This document shows, in pieces, positions 3 to 61,776 of a DNA stretch of 64,000 nucleotides. This DNA comes from Parvibaculaceae bacterium (GTDB lineage: Bacteria; Pseudomonadota; Alphaproteobacteria; Parvibaculales; Parvibaculaceae). Both the position numbers and the translations under genes were made by a program. The stretch is from positions 1,307,001 through 1,371,000 of the forward strand of contig JAPWJY010000008.1 in the NCBI GenBank assembly GCA_028283765.1, read 5' to 3'. A model generated the notes under the pieces. The model saw only the letters and a program-made list of their open reading frames with translations. It did no database searches and was not told the DNA's origin. Position 1 is the first letter of the stretch. Every line of letters starts with the position of its first letter.

Positions 3-485
3 AGCTTCTCGCTGGCGGCGAAGGCGGCCTATCTGTTCGATCTGGGGCTCCTGCGCGCCGGCCCGCTGGCCGGGTTCACCTACACGCATTCGAAGGTCAA
101 CGGCTACACGGAATCAGGCGACCCGCTCCTGACCTTCAATGTCGGCAGCCAGACGCTTGCAAGCCTGACGGGCAGCGCGGGCGTGCAGGTCAGGCTTCCT
201 TTCGAGGTGGCTGGTCATGCCATCAACCCCTATTTCAACCTCACGGCCGAGCATGATTTCCATGATGGCGATCGCACGCTCGAGATCAGCGAAACCCAGT
301 CGCCGCTATTGCCGATCTTCACCCGTGTCGAGGGCGATGGCACTGACACCTATGGCAGGGCGCAACTGGGTGTGAGCGCCGCGCTCACCGATAGTCTTTC
401 CCTTGTCGCGGATGCGGGAACCACCTTCGGCCGGGACAGCGGCTATGATCTGGCAGGCAACATCGGGTTGAGCTATCGTTTCTGA
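3..485 (+). CDS. Autotransporter beta-barrel domain, C-terminal part (partial)
   Basis: The reading frame is open from the window edge to a stop at 483-485, so only the last 160 residues are present. They show alternating polar/hydrophobic strands and end in Y-R-F, the terminal-aromatic signature of an outer-membrane beta-barrel recognised by the BAM complex. Phrases such as AGFTYTHSKVNGY, NPYFNLTAEHDF and a closing ADAGTTFGRDSGYDLAGNIGLSYRF-type pattern are typical of the type V autotransporter translocator domain. The passenger, and therefore the function (adhesin, esterase or protease), lies outside the window. Autotransporter family is well supported; substrate is unknown. Confidence 0.75.
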   Translation, partial: SFSLAAKAAYLFDLGLLRAGPLAGFTYTHSKVNGYTESGDPLLTFNVGSQTLASLTGSAGVQVRLPFEVAGHAINPYFNLTAEHDFHDGDRTLEISETQSPLLPIFTRVEGDGTDTYGRAQLGVSAALTDSLSLVADAGTTFGRDSGYDLAGNIGLSYRF

Positions 486-1403: not shown

Positions 1404-2093
1404 TTAGTGCTTGATGAAATGGGTCACGCCGTAATTGACGACGGTCATGATGTATTTCGACCAGTGGTCGTAACCGGGGCTGCGCCCGTTCACGGTTGCG
1501 AAATGGGCGCCGTCCTCGGTTTCGAACTCGCCGGGTTTCCCCATCATCAGCGAGGTGACGTAATAGCAGGGCGTCACCACATTCTTCAAAAGCGCGTCGA
1601 GCCGTTCGACCTTGTGAGGCGTTTTGGGGAAGATGCTTTTGTCCTGCCCGTAGGGAGGGCCAACCCAGATGCAGGAGGCTCCGCCACTCTTTATCTGTTC
1701 GGCAATGGTCGAAGCCTGATCCCAGATCCATGAGCGGGGGAAAGTCGCATCATCGTTGGTGTAGCCGCCCATGGCGTCTCCCAGAATGATGACCACCAGG
1801 TTGGGGTGATATTTGGCGAGCAGCGCCTGAATGCTTTCAGACGGTTTGCCATGCGGCACCAGCTTGAAAGCAGGCTTCTCCTTCGGGGTGGCTTCCACGG
1901 AACAGTTGGTCGGTTCGCCCCCTTCAATATAGGAGGACGCATTGTTGCCGCAGGCCGCCTCGATATAAACGGAAGCGCCTTCCGCCGTCATGGTTTCATA
2001 GAGCGGTTCCGACAGACGATGCGGGTGGGCCATGTGGCTGTCGCCCAGAATCAGAACACTCAGGCCAGCCATCAGGAGCGGCGTCGTTGCCAT
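1404..2093 (-). CDS. SGNH-fold hydrolase-like protein, paralogue of the WssF-like protein at 57772
   Basis: A 229-residue protein with the SGNH block I motif L-I-L-G-D-S-H-M (Ser19), a central VVIILGDAMGGY segment (block III-like) and a late D-G-A-H motif (Asp194, His197), so all parts of a Ser-Asp-His hydrolase site are in place. The start at 2093 was preferred over a longer open frame because it aligns with its paralogue: both begin with a short hydrophobic N-terminus running straight into the GDSH motif. Shared landmarks with the 57772 gene include WIWDQ, CYY near residue 176 and KPGE. The paralogue sits in a polysaccharide-acetylation operon, so a role in acetyl transfer or removal on a surface polymer is likely. 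This copy is isolated. Confidence 0.7.
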   Translation of the reverse strand: MATTPLLMAGLSVLILGDSHMAHPHRLSEPLYETMTAEGASVYIEAACGNNASSYIEGGEPTNCSVEATPKEKPAFKLVPHGKPSESIQALLAKYHPNLVVIILGDAMGGYTNDDATFPRSWIWDQASTIAEQIKSGGASCIWVGPPYGQDKSIFPKTPHKVERLDALLKNVVTPCYYVTSLMMGKPGEFETEDGAHFATVNGRSPGYDHWSKYIMTVVNYGVTHFIKH

Positions 2094-2774
2094 TCTCGTT
2101 CCAGTAAATAATGGGTCCGCAGGGTGAGGTGGATGCCGGGTCGCTTGGAGCGGCCATCCAGATAACGCAGGAATTAACTCAATTGTTAAAGGATTTGTCC
2201 CGGGCATGCCAGCTTCGACAAGAGCTGCTCCAGTAACATTTGTTTGTATTCGCCTGATGCGGCATGAGTCCGTTTATTTTTCATGCTCAAGAAAATTCCA
2301 TCTAACTGTCTGTTAAATAGAACACAAATTCGCAGCAGTTCTGGGTGTGGTAAGTGCACCAATTTATTACTTATATTTTAAGGACTTGGGCCCCGTCCTT
2401 CATATCTTGAGAGCGGGTGGGAAGATTGTCGCACCCGCCCAAAACGCCGGTCTTTATTCAAAATCTGCTTTGACAAAATATTCCTCACTCAGTATCCATA
2501 TAAAACAGATAGAGATTTAGATAATAGGGTGTGGGTGTGGATATGAACAAGGGAGCGGAGAGACCGGGTTCTGTCCTTGTCCGTCATGACGCGGAGCGGT
2601 GTCGCTGTTCATCCCGGCGGACACTTTACTCCTCATCCGCGTTGTTTTGAGCCGCACTGGTTCCAGTCGGCTTGTTCGTTCAACAGGCCGGAACCTGCGG
2701 CTTCCGCATCTTCAGGCCGTTATCCATGGACCGGCGCTTCACCAGCGACGGGCGTTTCACTCAGAGGTGTCTTC
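2094..2774. other. AT-rich intergenic region upstream of ssuD
   Basis: This 680-bp stretch is clearly richer in A+T than its surroundings between about 2170 and 2540. It contains two small hairpins (arms 2380-2385/2395-2400 and 2413-2419/2432-2438), neither followed by a T-run, a -35-like TTGACA at 2470-2475 with TATCCA 17 bp downstream (2493-2498), and a 35-codon open frame at 2543-2650. I see no long gene. The region must hold divergent promoters for the SGNH gene and ssuD, with a 5' leader of roughly 270 bases for ssuD if the promoter call is right. Confidence 0.4.
2470..2498 (+). promoter_or_regulatory. Putative promoter for ssuD
   Basis: A consensus -35 hexamer TTGACA (2470-2475) is followed after 17 bp by TATCCA (2493-2498), which matches the -10 consensus only in its first half. 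It lies in the AT-rich part of the gap and points toward ssuD. The weak -10 could indicate an activator-dependent promoter, as known for ssu genes under sulfur limitation, but I see no recognisable activator site. Confidence 0.35.
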
Positions 2775-53580: not shown

Positions 53581-54274
53581 GGACAAGATGGCCTATCCCG
53601 TTCTCTCCCTGCGCGGCATCAAGCGCGTCTATGCGCAGGGCGACCAGAAGCTGCATATTTTCGACGGTATCGATCTCGATATTCAGAGCGGCGAGATCAT
53701 CGCGCTGGTCGGTCCTTCAGGGGCCGGCAAATCATCGCTGCTGCATATCGCCGGGCTGCTTGAGCGGCCGACGGCGGGTGAAGTATTCATCGCCGGGCGT
53801 GATTGCGTGAAGCTTTCCGAAACGGACCGCACGGCCGTCCGGCGCAACGAACTGGGTTTCGTCTATCAGTCGCACAATCTGCTGGCGGAGTTCTCGGCGC
53901 TGGAAAATGTGGTTCTGCCACAGATGATCGCAGGCGTGCCCCGCAAGGAGGCTGGCGTCGTTGCCCAGCGTCTGCTGGAACAGATGGGCCTTGGCGCGCG
54001 GGCAAGCCATCGTCCTGCCGAGCTTTCAGGCGGCGAGCAGCAACGCGTGGCCATAGCGCGGGCGCTGGCCAACAGCCCCGGCATTCTGCTGGCGGATGAG
54101 CCGACCGGCAATCTCGATCCGCGCACCTCGGGGCATGTGTTCGAGGAACTGATCGGCATGTGCCGCAGCAAGGGCGTCGCGACCCTGATCGCCACCCATA
54201 ATTTTGAGCTGGCCCAGAGCATGGACCGCATTGTCCGCCTCGATCAGGGCCAACTGGTCGAAGGGCTGGAGTGA
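53573..54274 (+). CDS. lolD: Lipoprotein-releasing ABC transporter ATP-binding protein LolD
   Basis: A 233-residue ATPase. Walker A is [14 protein letters not shown], the Q-loop is [10 protein letters not shown] (the LolD/MacB pattern), the signature is [16 protein letters not shown], and Walker B is [13 protein letters not shown]. The start at 53573 overlaps the lolC stop. The gene ends only 8 bp from the end of the convergent TPR gene with no terminator between. In many relatives dnaE would come next; here about 7.9 kb intervene. Confidence 0.95.
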
Positions 54275-54282
54275 TTGCAGGC

Positions 54283-57200
54283 CTAGCTTGCGAACGGGCT
54301 TAGCTGCATCGGCAGTCCCTGACCGGGCCAGTTCGAGGCGGGTGGCGGCGCGGGCATCACGGGCACGGACGGGATATTGACGGGCACACTCGGCGTTGAG
54401 GCGGGCATACCTTGCGAGGCCGGGATGACGGCCGGCAGACTGGCGGGCTGTGAAGATGCCGGCACTGAAGCTGTCGCTGGCGTCGAGACGGGCGGCAGCG
54501 TGACGGTCGGTGCAACTCTCGTTGGCGGGATCAGTGGTTCGCGCGGCTGCTGGAGTTCCTGCTGGGGCGCCTGAGCCGGAAAGAAATTGCCCGGAAGCGC
54601 AGGAAGCTGTTTCTGTATCGGTTTCGCCGTTTCAGTCGCCGGGAAGCCGGGCAGGGCGGCTTTCACGGCGGGGGCCGTCACTTGTGGCGTCAGCTGCGCC
54701 GTCCGCAGTTCCCTGGCCTTTTCAAAGGCCTTCAACGCCGAATTGAGATTGCCGTCCGCGCGGTACATCTGGCCCCGGAGCAGGTAGAGACGCGGATCAT
54801 TCGGCGTCCGCTCGATAGCCTGCGAGAGATAGCCCTGCGCCTGACCGTAATTGCCCGCACTCATCTGGTTGAGGGCAGCCCCTTGCAGCACATTGGGGTC
54901 GTCCGGCGTGCGGGCGAGCAGATAATCATAGATCCGCTGGGCATCGCCGGTCTGCTTGTTGGATTGATAGACGCGGGCAAGCGCGGCGAGCAGTTGCGGG
55001 CTGTTCTGCGAGGCCGGATAGGCCGCCGCAATCGTGTTGTAGGCCCCGCCTATGTCGCCCGCATCCCGCAAGGCGTCGGCGCGCCGGGAGGCCACGCCCG
55101 CATTCAGCTCGGCCATCGCCTTGCGGTCGGCCGGGGTACGCACATTGGCGTTGAGCTGGCTGATCAGGCGGTCGGCATCGGCCTGATAGCCGGACTGGAG
55201 CAGCACATAGATATAGCCGCCATAATCGGCGGGGCTCGTCTTGGGAGATGTTGCCGCGGCCGTGCGGGCCATGGAAATCGCCTGGGCCTTTTCACCGCAA
55301 TTGTAGAGCAACTGGGCGATATAGCTTCTGTCGCCATTGGCAAGGGTGCTGCGGCTGGCAAGCACGTTGCGCAGCGAAGCGACGGATGAGGGAGAAACGG
55401 TGCCGGCCGTGCCGCAGGTCTGCTGAGCCCCCGCCATGCTGCGGTTGAGCGCCAGATCGCTTGCGAACCTCGACATGGCTGCCGTCCGCGACTTCGCCGG
55501 AATGCGGTTCATCAGTTCATTGGCGCGCGCGGTGTCGCCCTGCGTCGAATAATAGATGGCGGCGGCAAAAAGGCTGCTTGGCGTTGCGACCGCGGGATCG
55601 GTCACCGGGTCCACCAGACGGCCTGCATCCTCGCTGTTGCCGCGCGCCGCAAGGAAATTGGCATACTCAACCCGGAGCCAGGGATCGGACGGCGCCTTCG
55701 CCAGCGCACTGGAATAGGCCGCGTTTGCGCCATTGACGTCACCTGAATCCGCAAGATTTTTTGCGCGCGCCAGATCGGCCTGCGCCTGGGCCGAGACTAA
55801 TCCCGGCGCCAGTTGATCGCGCTGGGCCGCCGTCAGCCGCGACATCAGGGATTGCGCTTCGCTCACCTTGTTCTGCCGCATCAGCACGCCAGCAAGACCG
55901 GCCAGCGCGTTCTGGTTGCGAGGATCGAGCGAGAGGGCCTTCCTGAAATAGCGCTCAGCCTCGACAGGCCGGTTTTCTTCCGCGAGCACGCTGCCCAGCG
56001 CCGAGGAGGCAAGCGCGATGTTCGAGCGCTCGCCGCCATAGCTTCCATTGGCGAGCGGGCGCAGCAATGTTTCGGCGCGGGCATTCTGGTTGGCGTCGAT
56101 GGCCGCCTGCGCCTGCTTCATGTTGTTGAAGAAATGGATGGTGTTGAGCGCGGAGGCCCAGTCCTTGCGCTTGCTCGGATCGGCCCTGATGGCGCGATTG
56201 AAATAGTTTTCGGCGGTCTCATAGTTTTTCTGGCGCATATAGGCCATGCCCATGCCGCCAAGCGCCGCGGCGTCATTGGGGTTCTTGTTGATCTGTTCAC
56301 GAAAGAACGAAATGGCTTCAGCGGTATTGCCAGCCTTCAGCGCGGTGTAGCCACGCATCTGCCGTGCAACGTTCTTCTGAACGGTTTCAATAATCTGACG
56401 CTGGCCGTCGCGCTGAATCTTGACATAGTCGTCCAGCATGGCGCGGACCTGGGTGTCCTTCGGATGCTGCGCATAGTAGGCGTCATAAAGTGCCTGGTTT
56501 TCGGCGGATAGCTGGAATGGCGGCCTTGGCGTACTGGCGAAACCATTCTGGGGAATAAGCCAGATGAGAGCGGTGCGCCATGCCTCGTCTGCGTCCGCAT
56601 AGTTACTTGCATATTTCTGGAGGAGGCGAATGCCGTCCCGGCGCGTCTCGCCGCGATAGGTCAGGACCTTGGCATAGGCGATACCCAGACTCGCGTCCGT
56701 GGGACGCCGTTCATAAAGCTTGCCAAGCCCGGCTTGCGCCTCTTTCCAGCCGCCCGGCATGCCAGCGAGGGAGACATAGAACTCCACGGCATAGGCATCC
56801 GGCGGAGGCTGATTATTGAAAGCCCGGCGATAGGCGGCGATGCCATCACGGAATTTGCCCTTGGCGAAGAGATCCCGGGCCTGCTGGATGGCAGCGCTTG
56901 GCACGGGCTTGCGCACCATGGCCTCGCGAAGGTCCGGGATACGGGGATCGTTCGGGGACAGGGCGACGAACTGGTTGAAATAGTTTTTCGCGGAAACGAT
57001 GTCGCCCTGGTTCGCCGTGGCGATGGCCATGCCATAGATAGCCGACAGATTGTGTGAATCGACGGCCAGAACGCGCCTGAGCGCGTCTATCGCCTTGTCA
57101 GGCTGACCCCTGGAGTTCCAGAAATCCGCCTGCTTCAGCAGGGTGGCGATGGCATCCGAGCCGTTCGCTGGCGGGGTATCGGCCGCAGCGGGTGCAGGTG

Positions 57201-57378
57201 CGCCAGCCTGTGCCGGCGGAGTCCCCGGGCTGATGGAGGGCATGCCTGAAAGAACAGGAGCGGATGGCACGGTCGCTGGCGCGGGCAATTCAGCCCGTGC
57301 AACCGAAGACAGGAGAACTGTGGCACTTCCGGCGACAAGCAAGGTGCGGCAGATGCTGAGGCTGGACATCCGGCGCAT
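54283..57378 (-). CDS. TPR-rich exported protein, BcsC-like but without an outer-membrane barrel
   Basis: A protein of about 1031 residues. The start at 57378 gives a signal peptide (MRRMSSLSICRTLLVAG...SSVARA|ELPAP); a longer frame upstream has no export signal. The body is a chain of tetratricopeptide repeats (for example AISFFREQINKNPNDAAALGGMG and AERYFRKALSLDPRNQNALAGLAG) arranged like the periplasmic part of the cellulose-export protein BcsC/WssE. Unlike BcsC, it ends in a proline/alanine/valine-rich tail (PPTRVAPTVTLPPVSTP...) with no beta-barrel. It diverges from an acetylation operon, so a periplasmic scaffold for polymer export is likely; no synthase gene is present here. Confidence 0.8.
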   Translation of the reverse strand: MRRMSSLSICRTLLVAGSATVLLSSVARAELPAPATVPSAPVLSGMPSISPGTPPAQAGAPAPAAADTPPANGSDAIATLLKQADFWNSRGQPDKAIDALRRVLAVDSHNLSAIYGMAIATANQGDIVSAKNYFNQFVALSPNDPRIPDLREAMVRKPVPSAAIQQARDLFAKGKFRDGIAAYRRAFNNQPPPDAYAVEFYVSLAGMPGGWKEAQAGLGKLYERRPTDASLGIAYAKVLTYRGETRRDGIRLLQKYASNYADADEAWRTALIWLIPQNGFASTPRPPFQLSAENQALYDAYYAQHPKDTQVRAMLDDYVKIQRDGQRQIIETVQKNVARQMRGYTALKAGNTAEAISFFREQINKNPNDAAALGGMGMAYMRQKNYETAENYFNRAIRADPSKRKDWASALNTIHFFNNMKQAQAAIDANQNARAETLLRPLANGSYGGERSNIALASSALGSVLAEENRPVEAERYFRKALSLDPRNQNALAGLAGVLMRQNKVSEAQSLMSRLTAAQRDQLAPGLVSAQAQADLARAKNLADSGDVNGANAAYSSALAKAPSDPWLRVEYANFLAARGNSEDAGRLVDPVTDPAVATPSSLFAAAIYYSTQGDTARANELMNRIPAKSRTAAMSRFASDLALNRSMAGAQQTCGTAGTVSPSSVASLRNVLASRSTLANGDRSYIAQLLYNCGEKAQAISMARTAAATSPKTSPADYGGYIYVLLQSGYQADADRLISQLNANVRTPADRKAMAELNAGVASRRADALRDAGDIGGAYNTIAAAYPASQNSPQLLAALARVYQSNKQTGDAQRIYDYLLARTPDDPNVLQGAALNQMSAGNYGQAQGYLSQAIERTPNDPRLYLLRGQMYRADGNLNSALKAFEKARELRTAQLTPQVTAPAVKAALPGFPATETAKPIQKQLPALPGNFFPAQAPQQELQQPREPLIPPTRVAPTVTLPPVSTPATASVPASSQPASLPAVIPASQGMPASTPSVPVNIPSVPVMPAPPPASNWPGQGLPMQLSPFAS

Positions 57379-57771
57379 GTCAAAAAAGGATGTTATCCCC
57401 GCCACAAAAAATTCGTACCTTGATGACACGTTCCGGCGCTCCGTATACTGAGACACGCTGTCACGAAGACTTGCATCTGCCAGTCCGTCCGGCCTGTGCG
57501 TGGAGCTATGCAGACTCTTCTTCCCGCCGTCATTTGCCATTGCAGCAGCCAAGACCCGAAATTTGCCGATTCCCACCGAAAAGATTATCCGCCAGCTATC
57601 TAACCGGGGATAAGATTGTTCGCCCGTCCGATCGGGTTCGATAACCGGTTAGCCCATTACTTATCTCTTCACACCTATAGCGTGTGTTCAAGTGAAGCAA
57701 GGCAAAGCTTGTGCATTTGTATCAATTTGTAATAATATCCGGCGCAAGCTGGTAACTCAAGGTAGAAACCG
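57379..57771. other. Divergent control region between the TPR gene and the acetylation operon
   Basis: This 390-bp gap holds no gene I can support. The AT-rich right part carries the promoter candidate at 57709-57738. The left part must hold the promoter of the TPR gene, but I could not assign it. Confidence 0.4.
57709..57738 (+). promoter_or_regulatory. Putative promoter of the acetylation operon
   Basis: TTGTGC (57709-57714), an 18-bp spacer and TAATAT (57733-57738), 34 bp before the first gene. An AAGGTAG ribosome site follows at about 57759. Confidence 0.45.
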
Positions 57772-58437
57772 ATGAAAGCGCTTCTGGCCGGCATGGTCAT
57801 CCTGATGATCGGCGACAGTCACATGACAACTCCCGGTTATCTGATCACCACGCTGCATGATGACCTTATGAAGCAGGGCGCGGTTGTCTATTCGTTCGGG
57901 GCTTGCGGCGCGAATGCAGGGGAATGGGCGACGGAAGGGGAGGCCCCTTGCGGCAGCGCGAGCCGGATCAAGGGTGGCCCGGTCAAGACGGATCGTTCTC
58001 CCAGCGCCTCCACGCATCCCCTCTCGCAGCTCATTTCCACCTACAAGCCCAATCTGGTGGTGATCGTGCTGGGCGACACGATGGCGGGCTACACCTCGCC
58101 GCAACTCGCCAGGGCATGGATATGGGATCAGGTCTCCGCGCTTACGGACGAAGTGAAGTCCAGCGGCACGGCCTGCGCCTGGGTCGGTCCCGGCTGGGGT
58201 ACGGAAGGCGGCTCCTTTGGCAAGACCTTCGTGCGGGTGAAGGAGGCTTCGGACTATCTCTCGACCATCACGGCCCCTTGCTATTACATCAATTCACTCG
58301 TGTTCTCGAAGCCCGGCGAATGGGGCACGATCGATGGTCAGCATTACAATTCGGCCGGTTACAAGAACTGGGGCGCGGACATCGCCAGCGTGATCGATGT
58401 CCTGCCGCCCGTTAAGGCCCTATCCGGACAACAGTGA
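57772..58437 (+). CDS. SGNH-fold protein, WssF-like, first gene of a polymer-acetylation operon
   Basis: A 221-residue protein with a short hydrophobic N-terminus running into MIGDSHM (nucleophile Ser16), a VVIVLGDTMAGY block and a late D-G-Q-H motif (Asp188, His191), a full SGNH catalytic set. It precedes AlgF-, AlgI- and AlgJ-like genes, the order of wssF-G-H-I in the acetylated-cellulose operon of Pseudomonas fluorescens as I recall it. It may transfer or remove acetyl groups in the periplasm. A paralogue lies at 1404-2093. Its stop overlaps the next start (GTGA). Confidence 0.78.
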   Translation: MKALLAGMVILMIGDSHMTTPGYLITTLHDDLMKQGAVVYSFGACGANAGEWATEGEAPCGSASRIKGGPVKTDRSPSASTHPLSQLISTYKPNLVVIVLGDTMAGYTSPQLARAWIWDQVSALTDEVKSSGTACAWVGPGWGTEGGSFGKTFVRVKEASDYLSTITAPCYYINSLVFSKPGEWGTIDGQHYNSAGYKNWGADIASVIDVLPPVKALSGQQ

Positions 58438-59156
58438 ATAACATCGGGAAATCATCGACCATGTTTCTTAAAGTTTTGCGGTCTGCCGCCCTTCTGCTTA
58501 CCGGAATGGCGGCACTGCCTGCGGGCGCGTACGCAGACGATGCTCTTTACGATACGGGGCCGTCCCAGGACTCGTCCTATGTGCGCTTCGTCAATGCAAC
58601 CGACGCCACGGTGACGATCACGGGGCAGGCAGGCGCGAAGATCGATCTTCCGGCGGGGGACAATGCGCGCGCCACCAGATTTCAGCCGGTCAAGGCTGGC
58701 AAGGCGCTGGCTGCGGCGGTGACAGCGGCGGGCGGCACAGAAAATGTGACGGTGACGGTTGCCTCCGGCGAGTTCGCGACGGTTGTGGTGACCGGCGGCG
58801 CAGCGGCAAAGCCCGCCGTCACCGTTCTCAAGGAACAACCCTCGGATTTCAACGCGCTCAAGTCCTCGCTGGCTTTCTACAACATGGATGGCGCCTGCCC
58901 GTCGGCAGGGCTTGTGGCGGGTGCGAACAATACGCCGGTCTTCACCGGGCAGGCGCTGGGCACCTTCGCGCGCCGTGAAGTGAACCCCATCGCCATCGGC
59001 GTTGCCGCGCTATGCGGTGCTGCGCCTGCCGGCAATGCAGTCGATCTGGGACAGCTCGCAGCCGGGGGCCGCTACAGCATCTTTCTCGTCGCAACGGGCG
59101 TGAACGGCCATCATCTCTTCTCCGTAAAGGATGCGACCTCGACGTTTAAGAAATAA
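58434..59156 (+). CDS. AlgF-like periplasmic acetylation protein (WssG-like)
   Basis: A 240-residue exported protein from the GTG at 58434 (231 residues from the ATG at 58461). The signal peptide is LRSAALLLTGMAALPAGAYA. The mature start ALYDTGPSQDSSYVRFVNAT resembles AlgF (ALY-G...S-VR--NA), which helps pass acetyl groups to alginate or cellulose. Two Ig-like beta domains seem likely from the strand pattern. The GTGA overlap with the upstream gene favours the GTG start by translational coupling. Confidence 0.78.
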   Translation: MNNIGKSSTMFLKVLRSAALLLTGMAALPAGAYADDALYDTGPSQDSSYVRFVNATDATVTITGQAGAKIDLPAGDNARATRFQPVKAGKALAAAVTAAGGTENVTVTVASGEFATVVVTGGAAAKPAVTVLKEQPSDFNALKSSLAFYNMDGACPSAGLVAGANNTPVFTGQALGTFARREVNPIAIGVAALCGAAPAGNAVDLGQLAAGGRYSIFLVATGVNGHHLFSVKDATSTFKK

Positions 59157-59232
59157 GGCCAGACGGGGGAAGGGTTAAGCGGGATCTCAGCCAATCGTCT
59201 GACCGTTCAATGGGGGGCGTTCGCGCCAGAAC

Positions 59233-60642
59233 ATGGTTTTCGTATCCGTCGAGTTTCTGGCGCTCTTCCTGCCAGTCTTTTTCATTGCCTATGTGCTGAC
59301 GCCCAGGCCATGGCGCAACCTGACACTGCTGGCCGCAAGCTGGATCTTCTATGCGTGGTGGAAGCCGGTCTTCCTGACGCTGCTGGTGGCGGTGACGATC
59401 CTTGCATGGGCCTTCGGCCTGTTCATTGCCCATTCGATGGCGCGCGGCGATCTGAAAAAGGCGAACCGGCAGCTTACGTGGAGCATCATCCTCAATGTCG
59501 GCTGCCTCGCCTGGTTCAAATACGCCAATCTGCTGGTCGGCACGCTGAACAGCGGTCTTGAGATGGCGCACACGCAGCCGGTGATCTGGGATGACATCAT
59601 CCTGCCCATCGGGCTTTCCTTCTTCGTCATGCACTCCATGTCCTATCTCATCGACGTGCGCCGGGGCGTGGTGCAGGCCCAGCCGAGCTTTGTCGCCTTT
59701 GGCGCCTATATCGCCATGTTCGGCCAGCTGATCGCCGGTCCCATCGTGCGGTACAGCTGGGTGGACAAGGCCATCACCGAGCGCAGCCTGACCGTGGACG
59801 GGATGGTGCTGGGCGGACGGCGCTTCATGATCGGTTTCGCCATGAAGGTGCTGATCGCGGATTCGCTTTCTCCGCTGGTCGAGGTCGCCTTCAAGCTCCC
59901 CCATCCAAGCCTTGCGGACGCATGGCTTGGCTGTCTGGCCTATACGCTGCAGCTCTATTTCGATTTCGCGGGCTACAGCGCCATGGCTATCGGCATCGGG
60001 CTGATGCTCGGCTTCAATATCCACGAGAACTTCAACAACCCCTACCTGTCGGTCAGCATTCAGGATTTCTGGCGGCGCTGGCATATCAGCCTGTCCACAT
60101 GGCTGCGCGACTACCTCTACATCCCGCTGGGCGGCAACCGGCAGGGCGTGGTGCGGACCTATTTCAACCTGATCGCAACCATGGCCATCGGTGGCCTGTG
60201 GCATGGCGCAAGCTGGACCTTCATGGTCTGGGGCATGATCCATGGCCTGTCCTTGGCCGTTGACCGCTGGTGGACCCGCAGCGGGCGCAGCCTGCCGGGC
60301 TTCGTCTCCTATCCCCTGACCATGCTGGTCGTCATGCTGGCCTGGACATTGTTTCGCGCCAATGACTGGGGCACCGCCATCGCCATGCTCTCGGGCCAGA
60401 TCGGCCTTCATGGCGTGCCGCTGGGAGACCAGCTTCGCGTCGCGCTACGCCCGACCGAGAGTTTCTTCCTGATCGCCGGACTTGTCTGCGTCTGGTATCC
60501 GGCTCTGGCGGAGCGGCTGCCGCAGCGGCTTCAGGTGCCCCCCGGCTGGTGGAACGTGCTCTGGCCCGTGCTGCTGTTTCTCTATTCGCTGGCTGTGCTG
60601 AAGGGGCGGGAAACCGTTCCCTTCCTCTATTTTCAGTTTTAG
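59233..60642 (+). CDS. MBOAT O-acyltransferase, AlgI/WssH-like
   Basis: A 469-residue polytopic inner-membrane protein, the family that moves acetyl groups across the membrane for alginate, cellulose or other polymers. The MBOAT signature includes IQDFWRRWHISLSTWLRDYLYIPLGGNR (His284) and IGGLWHGASWTFMVWG with the catalytic His324. LYFDFAGYSAMAIGIGLMLGF is characteristic of AlgI. It follows the AlgF-like gene by 76 bp and precedes an AlgJ-like gene by 12 bp. Confidence 0.92.
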   Translation: MVFVSVEFLALFLPVFFIAYVLTPRPWRNLTLLAASWIFYAWWKPVFLTLLVAVTILAWAFGLFIAHSMARGDLKKANRQLTWSIILNVGCLAWFKYANLLVGTLNSGLEMAHTQPVIWDDIILPIGLSFFVMHSMSYLIDVRRGVVQAQPSFVAFGAYIAMFGQLIAGPIVRYSWVDKAITERSLTVDGMVLGGRRFMIGFAMKVLIADSLSPLVEVAFKLPHPSLADAWLGCLAYTLQLYFDFAGYSAMAIGIGLMLGFNIHENFNNPYLSVSIQDFWRRWHISLSTWLRDYLYIPLGGNRQGVVRTYFNLIATMAIGGLWHGASWTFMVWGMIHGLSLAVDRWWTRSGRSLPGFVSYPLTMLVVMLAWTLFRANDWGTAIAMLSGQIGLHGVPLGDQLRVALRPTESFFLIAGLVCVWYPALAERLPQRLQVPPGWWNVLWPVLLFLYSLAVLKGRETVPFLYFQF

Positions 60643-60654
60643 GGAGGAGGGACG

Positions 60655-61776
60655 ATGCACCGCAATTCGACGAAGCTCTTCTTTCTGCCCGGTCTCGTGC
60701 TGACCGCCGTTCTGGTTGCCGGACTTGTCACCAGCGTCATGACGCTCCTGTCCGACAAGGGAGCCGACTGGTGGGACGATGTGAGCTGGGGCAAGCTTGA
60801 GAGCGGCGAGACCACAGCCGCGCTCGCGGCGACATTGAAGGACAATCTGCCCGGTGGCCATTATCTCGTCACCGCCGACAGGGTCTCGGCCTATCTGCTG
60901 TTCCATGATCTGGGAACGCGGGTAAGGCCCGGATGCGACAACTGGCTGTTTCTGGCGGACGAACTCATGGTCTATCCCGACGCGGAAGCCCATCTGATGG
61001 TCCGCGCCAGAATGGTCGGGCAGGTTGAACAGGCGCTGAAGGAAAAGGGCGTCAATCTTGTTGTCGCCGTCGTGCCCGACAAGAGCCGGGTTTCGGGTGA
61101 GCATCTTTGCGGCGTCGACCGTCCTGCCCGGTTCGAGAGCCGTCTGGGTGATTTTGTGACGGCTCTGCGAGCGCAGAAAATATCGACTGTCAATCTGCTG
61201 GATGTGCTCTCCCTGCCCGGCGGGGAACATTATTACCGCACGGATACGCACTGGAACCAGCCAGGCGCCCGCCTGGCCGCGGAAGCCGTTGCCGGGCAAT
61301 TGCGAGATGCCGGCCTCGCGCCCCCACCGGGCGCGCTCTGGAAGATCAGCATGGGCGCTTCACAGGAGCGCGTGGGCGATCTGATCCGGCTTGCCGGTCT
61401 TTCGGATGTTGCCGTTCCCTACCGGCCCAAAGGGGACATGGTGGCGCTCCAGACCCTTGAGGCGCCCGCAGCGGAAGGCGGCAGCGACCTCTTCGGCGAC
61501 ACCCGGTTGCCGGGCATCGTCGATATCGGCACGTCCTACTCCAACAACTCGAACTTCGTGGATTATATCTCGGCTGCGCTTTCCTCTCCCGTCGCCAATA
61601 TGGCCCGGGACGGGGGCGACTTCTCGGGCTCGGCGGTCGCCTATTTCACCAACCCGGCCTTCCTCCAGACCCCGCCCAAGGTGGTCATCTGGGAAATCCC
61701 CGAGCGCGTCCTTGAACAGCCGCTGACGCAACAGGAGAAGGATTGGCGGGAGAAGCTGGCGGCGGGAAAACTCTAG
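60655..61776 (+). CDS. AlgJ/AlgX-like acetyltransferase (WssI-like)
   Basis: A 373-residue protein with an N-terminal membrane anchor (about residues 8-30) and a periplasmic SGNH-type domain. The AlgJ/AlgX catalytic marks are present: DTHWN (Asp197, His199) and GTSYS (Ser294 or Ser296), matching the acetyl-transferring Ser-His-Asp set. It probably takes acetyl from the MBOAT partner and places it on the exported polymer. Last gene of the operon; a strong terminator follows. Confidence 0.9.
   Translation: MHRNSTKLFFLPGLVLTAVLVAGLVTSVMTLLSDKGADWWDDVSWGKLESGETTAALAATLKDNLPGGHYLVTADRVSAYLLFHDLGTRVRPGCDNWLFLADELMVYPDAEAHLMVRARMVGQVEQALKEKGVNLVVAVVPDKSRVSGEHLCGVDRPARFESRLGDFVTALRAQKISTVNLLDVLSLPGGEHYYRTDTHWNQPGARLAAEAVAGQLRDAGLAPPPGALWKISMGASQERVGDLIRLAGLSDVAVPYRPKGDMVALQTLEAPAAEGGSDLFGDTRLPGIVDIGTSYSNNSNFVDYISAALSSPVANMARDGGDFSGSAVAYFTNPAFLQTPPKVVIWEIPERVLEQPLTQQEKDWREKLAAGKL

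Follow-up and report, generated by a model that had tools for sequence, protein, structure and literature searches.

The DNA under study is a 64,000-nucleotide stretch of contig JAPWJY010000008.1 from a Parvibaculaceae bacterium (assembly GCA_028283765.1, positions 1,307,001 to 1,371,000), hereafter the window. At 54283-57378 on its reverse strand lies a gene for a protein that resembles the tetratricopeptide repeat (TPR) part of the cellulose export protein BcsC and has no outer-membrane barrel; a cellulose acetylation cassette of the WssF-G-H-I type adjoins it. TPRshort is our working name for such barrel-less BcsC-like TPR proteins, G000 denotes the window genome and G001 a sister genome of the same genus. 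The parts of the gene are as follows.

54283..57378 (-): TPRshort, barrel-less BcsC-like TPR protein, 1031 amino acids (translation, profile and PDB-chain matches)
57292..57378 (-): Sec signal peptide predicted at the N-terminus (residues 1-29), ending ...SSVARA before ELPA (judged by eye)
54691..57162 (-): helical TPR solenoid, residues 73-896, 44 predicted helices (Pfam and NCBIfam matches, AlphaFold2)
54283..54690 (-): Pro/Ala/Ser/Val-rich tail, residues 897-1031, predicted to be disordered (Pfam, AlphaFold2, comparison with the linker of the genome's own BcsC)

A BcsC-type repeat protein without a barrel

The 1031-residue translation contains no internal stops, and G001 carries an intact copy of the gene with 89% identity. 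Over the whole chain, the named family that fits best is NCBIfam BcsC (NF008520; E 6.7e-57, 193.1 bits), in which residues 76-815 align with positions 27-732 of 1157 in the model, i.e. with the TPR part of BcsC only. The curated cut-off of 858 bits is not reached; since the barrelled BcsC of the same genome, searched in pieces, also falls below it, this cut-off appears harsh for the class. The E. coli BcsC chain 9b8a in the PDB aligns with residues 79-633 (E 2.6e-28), and both matches place an N-terminal TPR array of BcsC type in the protein. Among the 25 of 28 Pfam matches listed, all are to TPR-type families and none is to Sel1. There is no Cys at +1 after the predicted signal peptide (by eye), so the protein is not an outer-membrane lipoprotein with Sel1-like repeats of the AlgK kind. 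The full-chain structure prediction that the initial annotation had called for (AlphaFold2, from two sequences) yields a helical solenoid of 44 helices over residues 73-896, without any strand and with both ends disordered; confidence in this model is low (mean pLDDT 57).

The tail of about 127-135 residues is Pro/Ala-rich and comparable in length and composition to the linker between TPRs and barrel in the genome's own BcsC. Its last 132 residues have zero matches in Pfam at E<=10, the C-terminal barrel PF05420 included. We also searched the window, and the overlapping stretch L022 that extends 9 kb past it, by tblastn with three BcsC barrels (from the same genome, from genome G378 and from E. 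coli). Nothing exceeded 24 bits while the positive control gave 127-769 bits, which argues that no barrel frame is hidden near 54283. Nor is there room for one past this position, because a lolD-like gene ends at 54274, 8 bp from the end of the TPR gene. The barrel, any relic of it and a rescuing frame are thus all absent from the window. The initial annotation had described a BcsC-like array with a low-complexity Pro/Ala-rich C-terminus in place of the barrel, a description that would have fallen if a profile search found no similarity to BcsC or if correcting a frameshift near 54283 recovered a barrel; the description stands on both counts, and a concealed barrel is ruled out.

The initial annotation had overlooked the acetylation cassette at 57772-61776 (+), which begins 393 bp from the TPR gene and diverges from it.

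57379..57771 (no strand): divergent intergenic region, 91% mean column identity with G001 (alignment)
57772..58437 (+): WssF/BcsX-type SGNH protein, 221 amino acids, GDSH and DGQH motifs, no room for a signal peptide
58434..59156 (+): WssG/AlgF-like protein, 240 amino acids (PF11182, E 4.8e-7, 29.9 bits, under the cut-off of 34.4)
59233..60642 (+): WssH/AlgI-like MBOAT acyltransferase, 469 amino acids (PF03062, E 3.7e-27)
60655..61776 (+): WssI/AlgJ/AlgX-like SGNH acetyltransferase, 373 amino acids, N-terminal hydrophobic segment, DTHW and GTSYS motifs (PF16822, E 3e-69)

The gene types and their order, SGNH (WssF), AlgF-like (WssG), MBOAT (WssH) and AlgX/J-like SGNH (WssI), are those of a Wss cassette. 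Catalytic motifs were recognised in WssI and WssF. DTHW is present in all nine WssI sequences and G-S/T-S-Y/F-S in eight of them (that of G206 was missed by the pattern used); GDSH is present in 9/9 WssF sequences, and the MBOAT pattern used matched none of four WssH.

The start of WssF was compared in eight proteins: that of the window (57772-58437), the homologues L034, L035, L036, L072, L075 and L050 from six other species, and a lone gene at 1404-2207. In seven, the start lies 14-16 residues before the catalytic GDSH with an in-frame stop 2-21 codons upstream, so a classical signal peptide is impossible in these. This sits badly with the published scheme, in which WssF is a possible terminal periplasmic transferase; the location of its relative BcsX is already doubted in a passage of PMC9318390. 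The exception is the lone second WssF-like SGNH gene at 1404-2207 (-), 56 kb from the cassette and 40% identical to its WssF, whose product extends for about 50 residues on the N-terminal side of GDSH. Tandem wssF pairs, about 56% and 43% identical to the window WssF, occur in two gammaproteobacterial wss operons (L075, 9700-11065; L076, 9452-10913).

Conserved blocks are visible in 57379-57771. They include, as read from the alignment, the imperfect palindrome CACAC-CTATAGC-GTGTG upstream of wssF and, close to the TPR gene, the palindromic GTATAC. At the other end of the window, the frame end at 3-485 (+) resembles, by eye, the C-terminus of an autotransporter beta-domain.

A separate cellulose operon with its own pore

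The genome G000 (3.24 Mb in 9 contigs, completeness 100) has a single BCSC_C barrel match (333.9 bits) and a single BcsA over the cut-off. BLAST and inspection by eye place a bcsQ-A-B-C-D locus with a barrelled BcsC on another contig, C7, so the cassette is not linked to the cellulose synthase operon; both loci are present in G001 as well, where bcsZ follows in the bcs locus. Since the barrelled BcsC sits in the bcs operon, cellulose has its own pore and needs no further one. The scaffold that the initial annotation offered, and its comparison with AlgK and AlgE, remain tenable; it had not noted that cellulose itself needs no different pore. A barrelled BcsC within a full bcs operon implies that the window protein is an extra TPR module next to a functional export pore, linked to polymer modification, and not a defective exporter. 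Two other BcsA-like glycosyltransferases of family GT2 score below the cut-off: a 937-residue frame on contig C4 (L011, 122.6 bits) and a match on contig C3 (44.9 bits).

Could TPRshort instead replace BcsC, serving as the scaffold of a second cellulose export route that ends in an unrecognised outer-membrane porin? There is a precedent in type III Bcs systems, which use BcsK, for 'periplasmic scaffolding only', in place of BcsC (PMC11470070, PMC6559018), and BcsK is likewise a BcsC-type scaffold without an outer-membrane barrel. However, BcsK takes the place of BcsC inside the synthase operon, beside bcsA and bcsB, whereas TPRshort coexists with a barrelled BcsC at an acetylation locus that has no adjoining bcsA, bcsB or other synthase gene; we set the two apart by description. 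Only one BcsA over the cut-off is found in the genome, and the TPRshorts group in the tree described below with the BcsCs of wss operons. We therefore consider a BcsK-like replacement unlikely, on searches for pores that covered the BcsC-type barrel.

Distribution, descent and selection

Among 40 genomes of the family, the window protein has a match in two, both in its genus; a search at the level of the order returned the same 40. In the class, where two candidates per genome were scored, nine of 289 genomes match at E<=1e-25. The barrel-less matches outside the genus (G080, G206 and G302) all belong to one genus, g46, of a distant family, f42, and each lies directly upstream of wssFGHI. The barrelled BcsCs found outside the genus, a second copy in G302 and those of G242, G133, G316, G232 (on a contig of only 9 kb) and G118 (in two frames), have no wss genes in the fetched stretch. 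Within the fetched DNA of this search, wssFGHI stands beside 4/4 barrel-less and 0/7 full BcsC matches (Fisher p 0.003, with three of the four barrel-less cases coming from one genus).

Searching with WssF, we found matches in six of 385 genomes of the class (that of G043 weak and without any other part), in five of 398 of the phylum and in 7/7 of family f42. In five of these seven the barrel-less TPR gene is directly upstream of wssF, and four (G080, G206, G302 and G421) have the full TPRshort-wssFGHI arrangement; in G422, TPRshort lies in two frames and is followed by wssF and the contig end. The remaining two are organised differently. G378 has bcsA/B-C-D-Z-wssF-G up to a contig end, with TPRs and barrel in one chain, and in G420 the fetched stretch opens with bcsB-C-D-Z-wssFGHI, the BcsC (TPRs and barrel) lying in three frames. 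A barrelled BcsC is encoded elsewhere in every TPRshort genome with a readable second BcsC, i.e. G000, G001, G080, G206, G302 and G421.

These loci also bear on whether the cassette acetylates some polymer other than cellulose, such as the product of another GT2 synthase, with TPRshort as its scaffold. The two BcsA-like matches below the cut-off and the separation of the cassette from the bcs operon in G000 would suit such an arrangement. On the other hand, the wss genes of G378 and G420 share a locus with bcsB-C-D-Z (and bcsA in G378), as far as the contig or fetched ends reach, and the window cassette proteins are closest to those of these two genomes. Acetylation of a different polymer thus seems to us to have little chance of being correct.

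Beyond these families, wss-type genes lie close to a barrelled BcsC on plasmids of Roseomonas haemaphysalidis, R. marmotae and Methylobacterium aquaticum. In Pseudoroseomonas cervicalis, the fetched stretch contains wssF, H and I and no barrelled BcsC, and the gammaproteobacterial genomes G533, G657 and G756 show the classical single bcs-wss locus. With the TPR protein as query, 38 plasmid records matched; most of those with annotation carry the name BcsC and, judged from the listing, none was recognised as barrel-less. The M. aquaticum plasmid pMaq22A_2p (L050) is mobilizable and holds a rearranged acetylation locus: bcsA-B-C-D together with MBOAT, AlgJ-like, WssF and DUF4397 genes, an extra AlgF-like gene and two GH8 genes.

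A maximum-likelihood tree built from 21 TPR regions unites the f42 TPRshorts in a single clade (100/100) whose sisters are the barrelled wss-linked BcsCs of f42 (100/99), with the joining node at 100/100. The window pair joins this wss-linked group with moderate support (86/81), and a tree of WssH plus WssI from 13 genomes has the same branching order. The seven TPR-only proteins had been selected as lacking a barrel before any tree was made, and the approximately unbiased (AU) test rejects them as one clade (p-AU 5.6e-6); a single origin of all TPR-only proteins is thereby rejected. Because these proteins do not form one clade, the barrel was probably lost twice, each time beside the same type of cassette. 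Alternatively, the barrel may have been lost once, the TPRshort-wss module spread horizontally and the barrel regained by refusion in G378 and G420, with the function unchanged. Two losses and one loss with one regain require equal numbers of changes on the TPR tree, and the barrel tree leaves the place of G378 and G420 unresolved. Nevertheless, regaining a barrel along with a fitting linker is less easy than losing one, all outgroups are barrelled and the AU test speaks against a single TPR-only clade, so that we judge the history with a regain to be improbable.

The ratio of non-synonymous to synonymous substitution rates (dN/dS) between G000 and G001 is 0.077 over the TPR part of the window protein (residues 76-905; 228 synonymous vs 73 non-synonymous differences), 0.153 over the tail, 0.113 over the TPR part of BcsC and 0.05-0.14 over the wss genes. 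The TPR region is under purifying selection. This value bears on the view that TPRshort is a functionless remnant of a duplicated bcs-wss operon that has lost bcsA, B, D and Z together with the barrel. Such decay would agree with a fragment that ends in a former linker, with the absence of bcsA/B/D/Z from the locus and with the copy of G422 that is broken into two frames. Yet the frames are intact in G000, G001, G080, G206, G302 and G421, and the low dN/dS and the recurrence in two families lead us to reject a BcsC pseudogene; a relic is accordingly the least credible explanation, one we hold to be very improbable.

Proposed role of TPRshort

We regard it as reasonably probable that TPRshort is a BcsC paralogue without a barrel which acts as a periplasmic scaffold of the WssFGHI acetylation machinery, while cellulose is exported by the separate BcsC. 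In origin, a BcsC linked to a wss operon would have lost its barrel and kept the whole periplasmic TPR solenoid. The exported protein would be placed along the path of the cellulose made by the genome's one BcsA/BcsB synthase. There, between BcsB and BcsC, it may keep the periplasmic acetylation proteins WssI and WssG next to the polymer and pass the polymer to the BcsC with a barrel that the bcs operon encodes. We infer that this polymer is cellulose and that TPRshort binds WssI and WssG, cellulose and BcsB. The same arrangement in a distant family suggests that the arm became a docking platform for acetylating enzymes.

Related systems offer precedents, according to passages of the papers cited. 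In alginate biosynthesis, the acetyltransferase AlgX binds the last repeats of AlgK (TPRs 9-10) and this is required for alginate production (PMC9734138), and a complex of AlgI, J, F and X is tied to AlgK, with AlgF joining AlgJ, AlgX and AlgK (PMC10641220). The TPR part of PgaA binds poly-N-acetylglucosamine and PgaB and alters the activity of PgaB (PMC9384988). WssI transfers acetyl onto cello-oligomers (PMC10302187), and the assembly of Wss and the role of WssG are called open (PMC10302187, PMC10641220).

Like AlgK, TPRshort is a separate periplasmic repeat protein beside AlgI/J/F/X-type acetylation genes, with the pore on another chain. Unlike it, TPRshort has about 20 TPR-like hairpins, no lipobox and BcsC descent, AlgK being a lipoprotein with about 9.5 Sel1-like repeats. 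With BcsC/WssE (TPRs plus a 16-strand barrel), it shares homology over nearly the whole TPR array, the exported topology, a P-rich linker-like end and, as in the P. fluorescens wss operon, the neighbouring wss genes. It differs from BcsC/WssE in lacking the barrel, in coexisting with a second, barrelled BcsC and in its NCBIfam score (193 vs 858 bits). The cassette has the four gene types of WssFGHI of P. fluorescens SBW25 and bcsX/bcsY of Komagataeibacter bcsII, in the order F-G-H-I, but here it stands apart from bcsABCDZ and has a TPR-only BcsC paralogue beside it.

Several observations weigh against the scaffold role. The window TPR gene is divergent from the cassette and outside its operon, and its product is only about 34% identical to the f42 TPRshorts, not especially close. 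Since WssF has no room for a signal peptide, at least this protein may miss a periplasmic scaffold. The structural model is poor (pLDDT 57), and its best Foldseek matches in the PDB are generic eukaryotic TPR/HAT solenoids with a TM-score of 0.2 or less. In addition, the BcsB contacts are only partly kept: of the seven positions given for TPR1 of E. coli BcsC in PMC11379886, the window protein shares Gln34 and Arg53, has F and V in place of Leu37 and Ile57, and differs at Gln30, Gln49 and Leu56; Arg53 is Q in all four aligned f42 TPRshorts. For Trp766 of E. coli, which stacks on cellulose, the linkers examined offered no reliable counterpart.

A related trend is seen in the pore-bearing partner. 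In G206, G080 and G421, the BcsC of the bcs operon is missing the central part of its TPR array, and what remains is the repeats at both ends and the barrel (the barrel Pfam-confirmed for G206 and G421, and also confirmed for G080). The residues before the barrel number 591, 603 and 707, values inflated by a barrel insertion, vs a minimum of 729 in a baseline of E. coli and 12 barrel-selected plasmid BcsCs, hand-picked for different genera from 179 records and including two that were already wssF matches. This loss affects three of the six TPRshort genomes with a complete second BcsC and is absent in G000, G001 and G302; the second BcsC of G422 is cut by the contig end and its TPR part is long. 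As a general effect of having a TPRshort partner, the loss is discounted by its occurrence in only 3/6 genomes, the window genome not among them, and we treat this small and related sample as a lead. The insertion itself, of about 100 residues inside the barrel domain, is found in BcsCs of f42/g46 (L077, L078, L091, L037) and consists of two similar halves, TxVTxxNxxxLAxIVxxN... and ...FVxxNxTIxxxLTxAQ....

In E. coli BcsC, according to PMC11379886, BcsB is bound by the first repeat, and a putative cello-oligosaccharide sits in the last repeats and linker. In G206, G080 and G421, the two end regions for which partners are known thus remain with the pore protein, and the complete middle is found only on TPRshort. 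We tentatively propose, with more doubt than confidence, that the TPR solenoid of BcsC is a docking platform for cellulose acetylation which was twice split from its pore to give an AlgK/AlgE-like pair, and that in these three genomes the pore BcsC then lost its middle TPRs, dividing the work between acetylation enzymes on one chain and the BcsB and pore ends on the other.

A poreless export scaffold is not new as such, given BcsK and the split pair AlgK/AlgE. As far as we have seen, the novelty lies in a BcsC paralogue without a pore that occurs alongside BcsC and accompanies an acetylation cassette; the open-access literature yielded no published description of one, and an operon survey (PMC7112194) lists no more than four operons for acetylated cellulose, from Pseudomonas and Bordetella.

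With the TPR part kept only together with wssFGHI after a probable double loss of the pore, this part is likely to be the docking site of Wss proteins on the path of cellulose, and TPRshort offers a soluble, barrel-free protein with which Wss docking could be tested. The case would also provide a natural model for the interconversion of one-piece (BcsC, PelB, PgaA) and split (AlgK/AlgE) export proteins, and TPRshort with wssFGHI may constitute a portable five-gene module that acetylates cellulose supplied by a separate operon.

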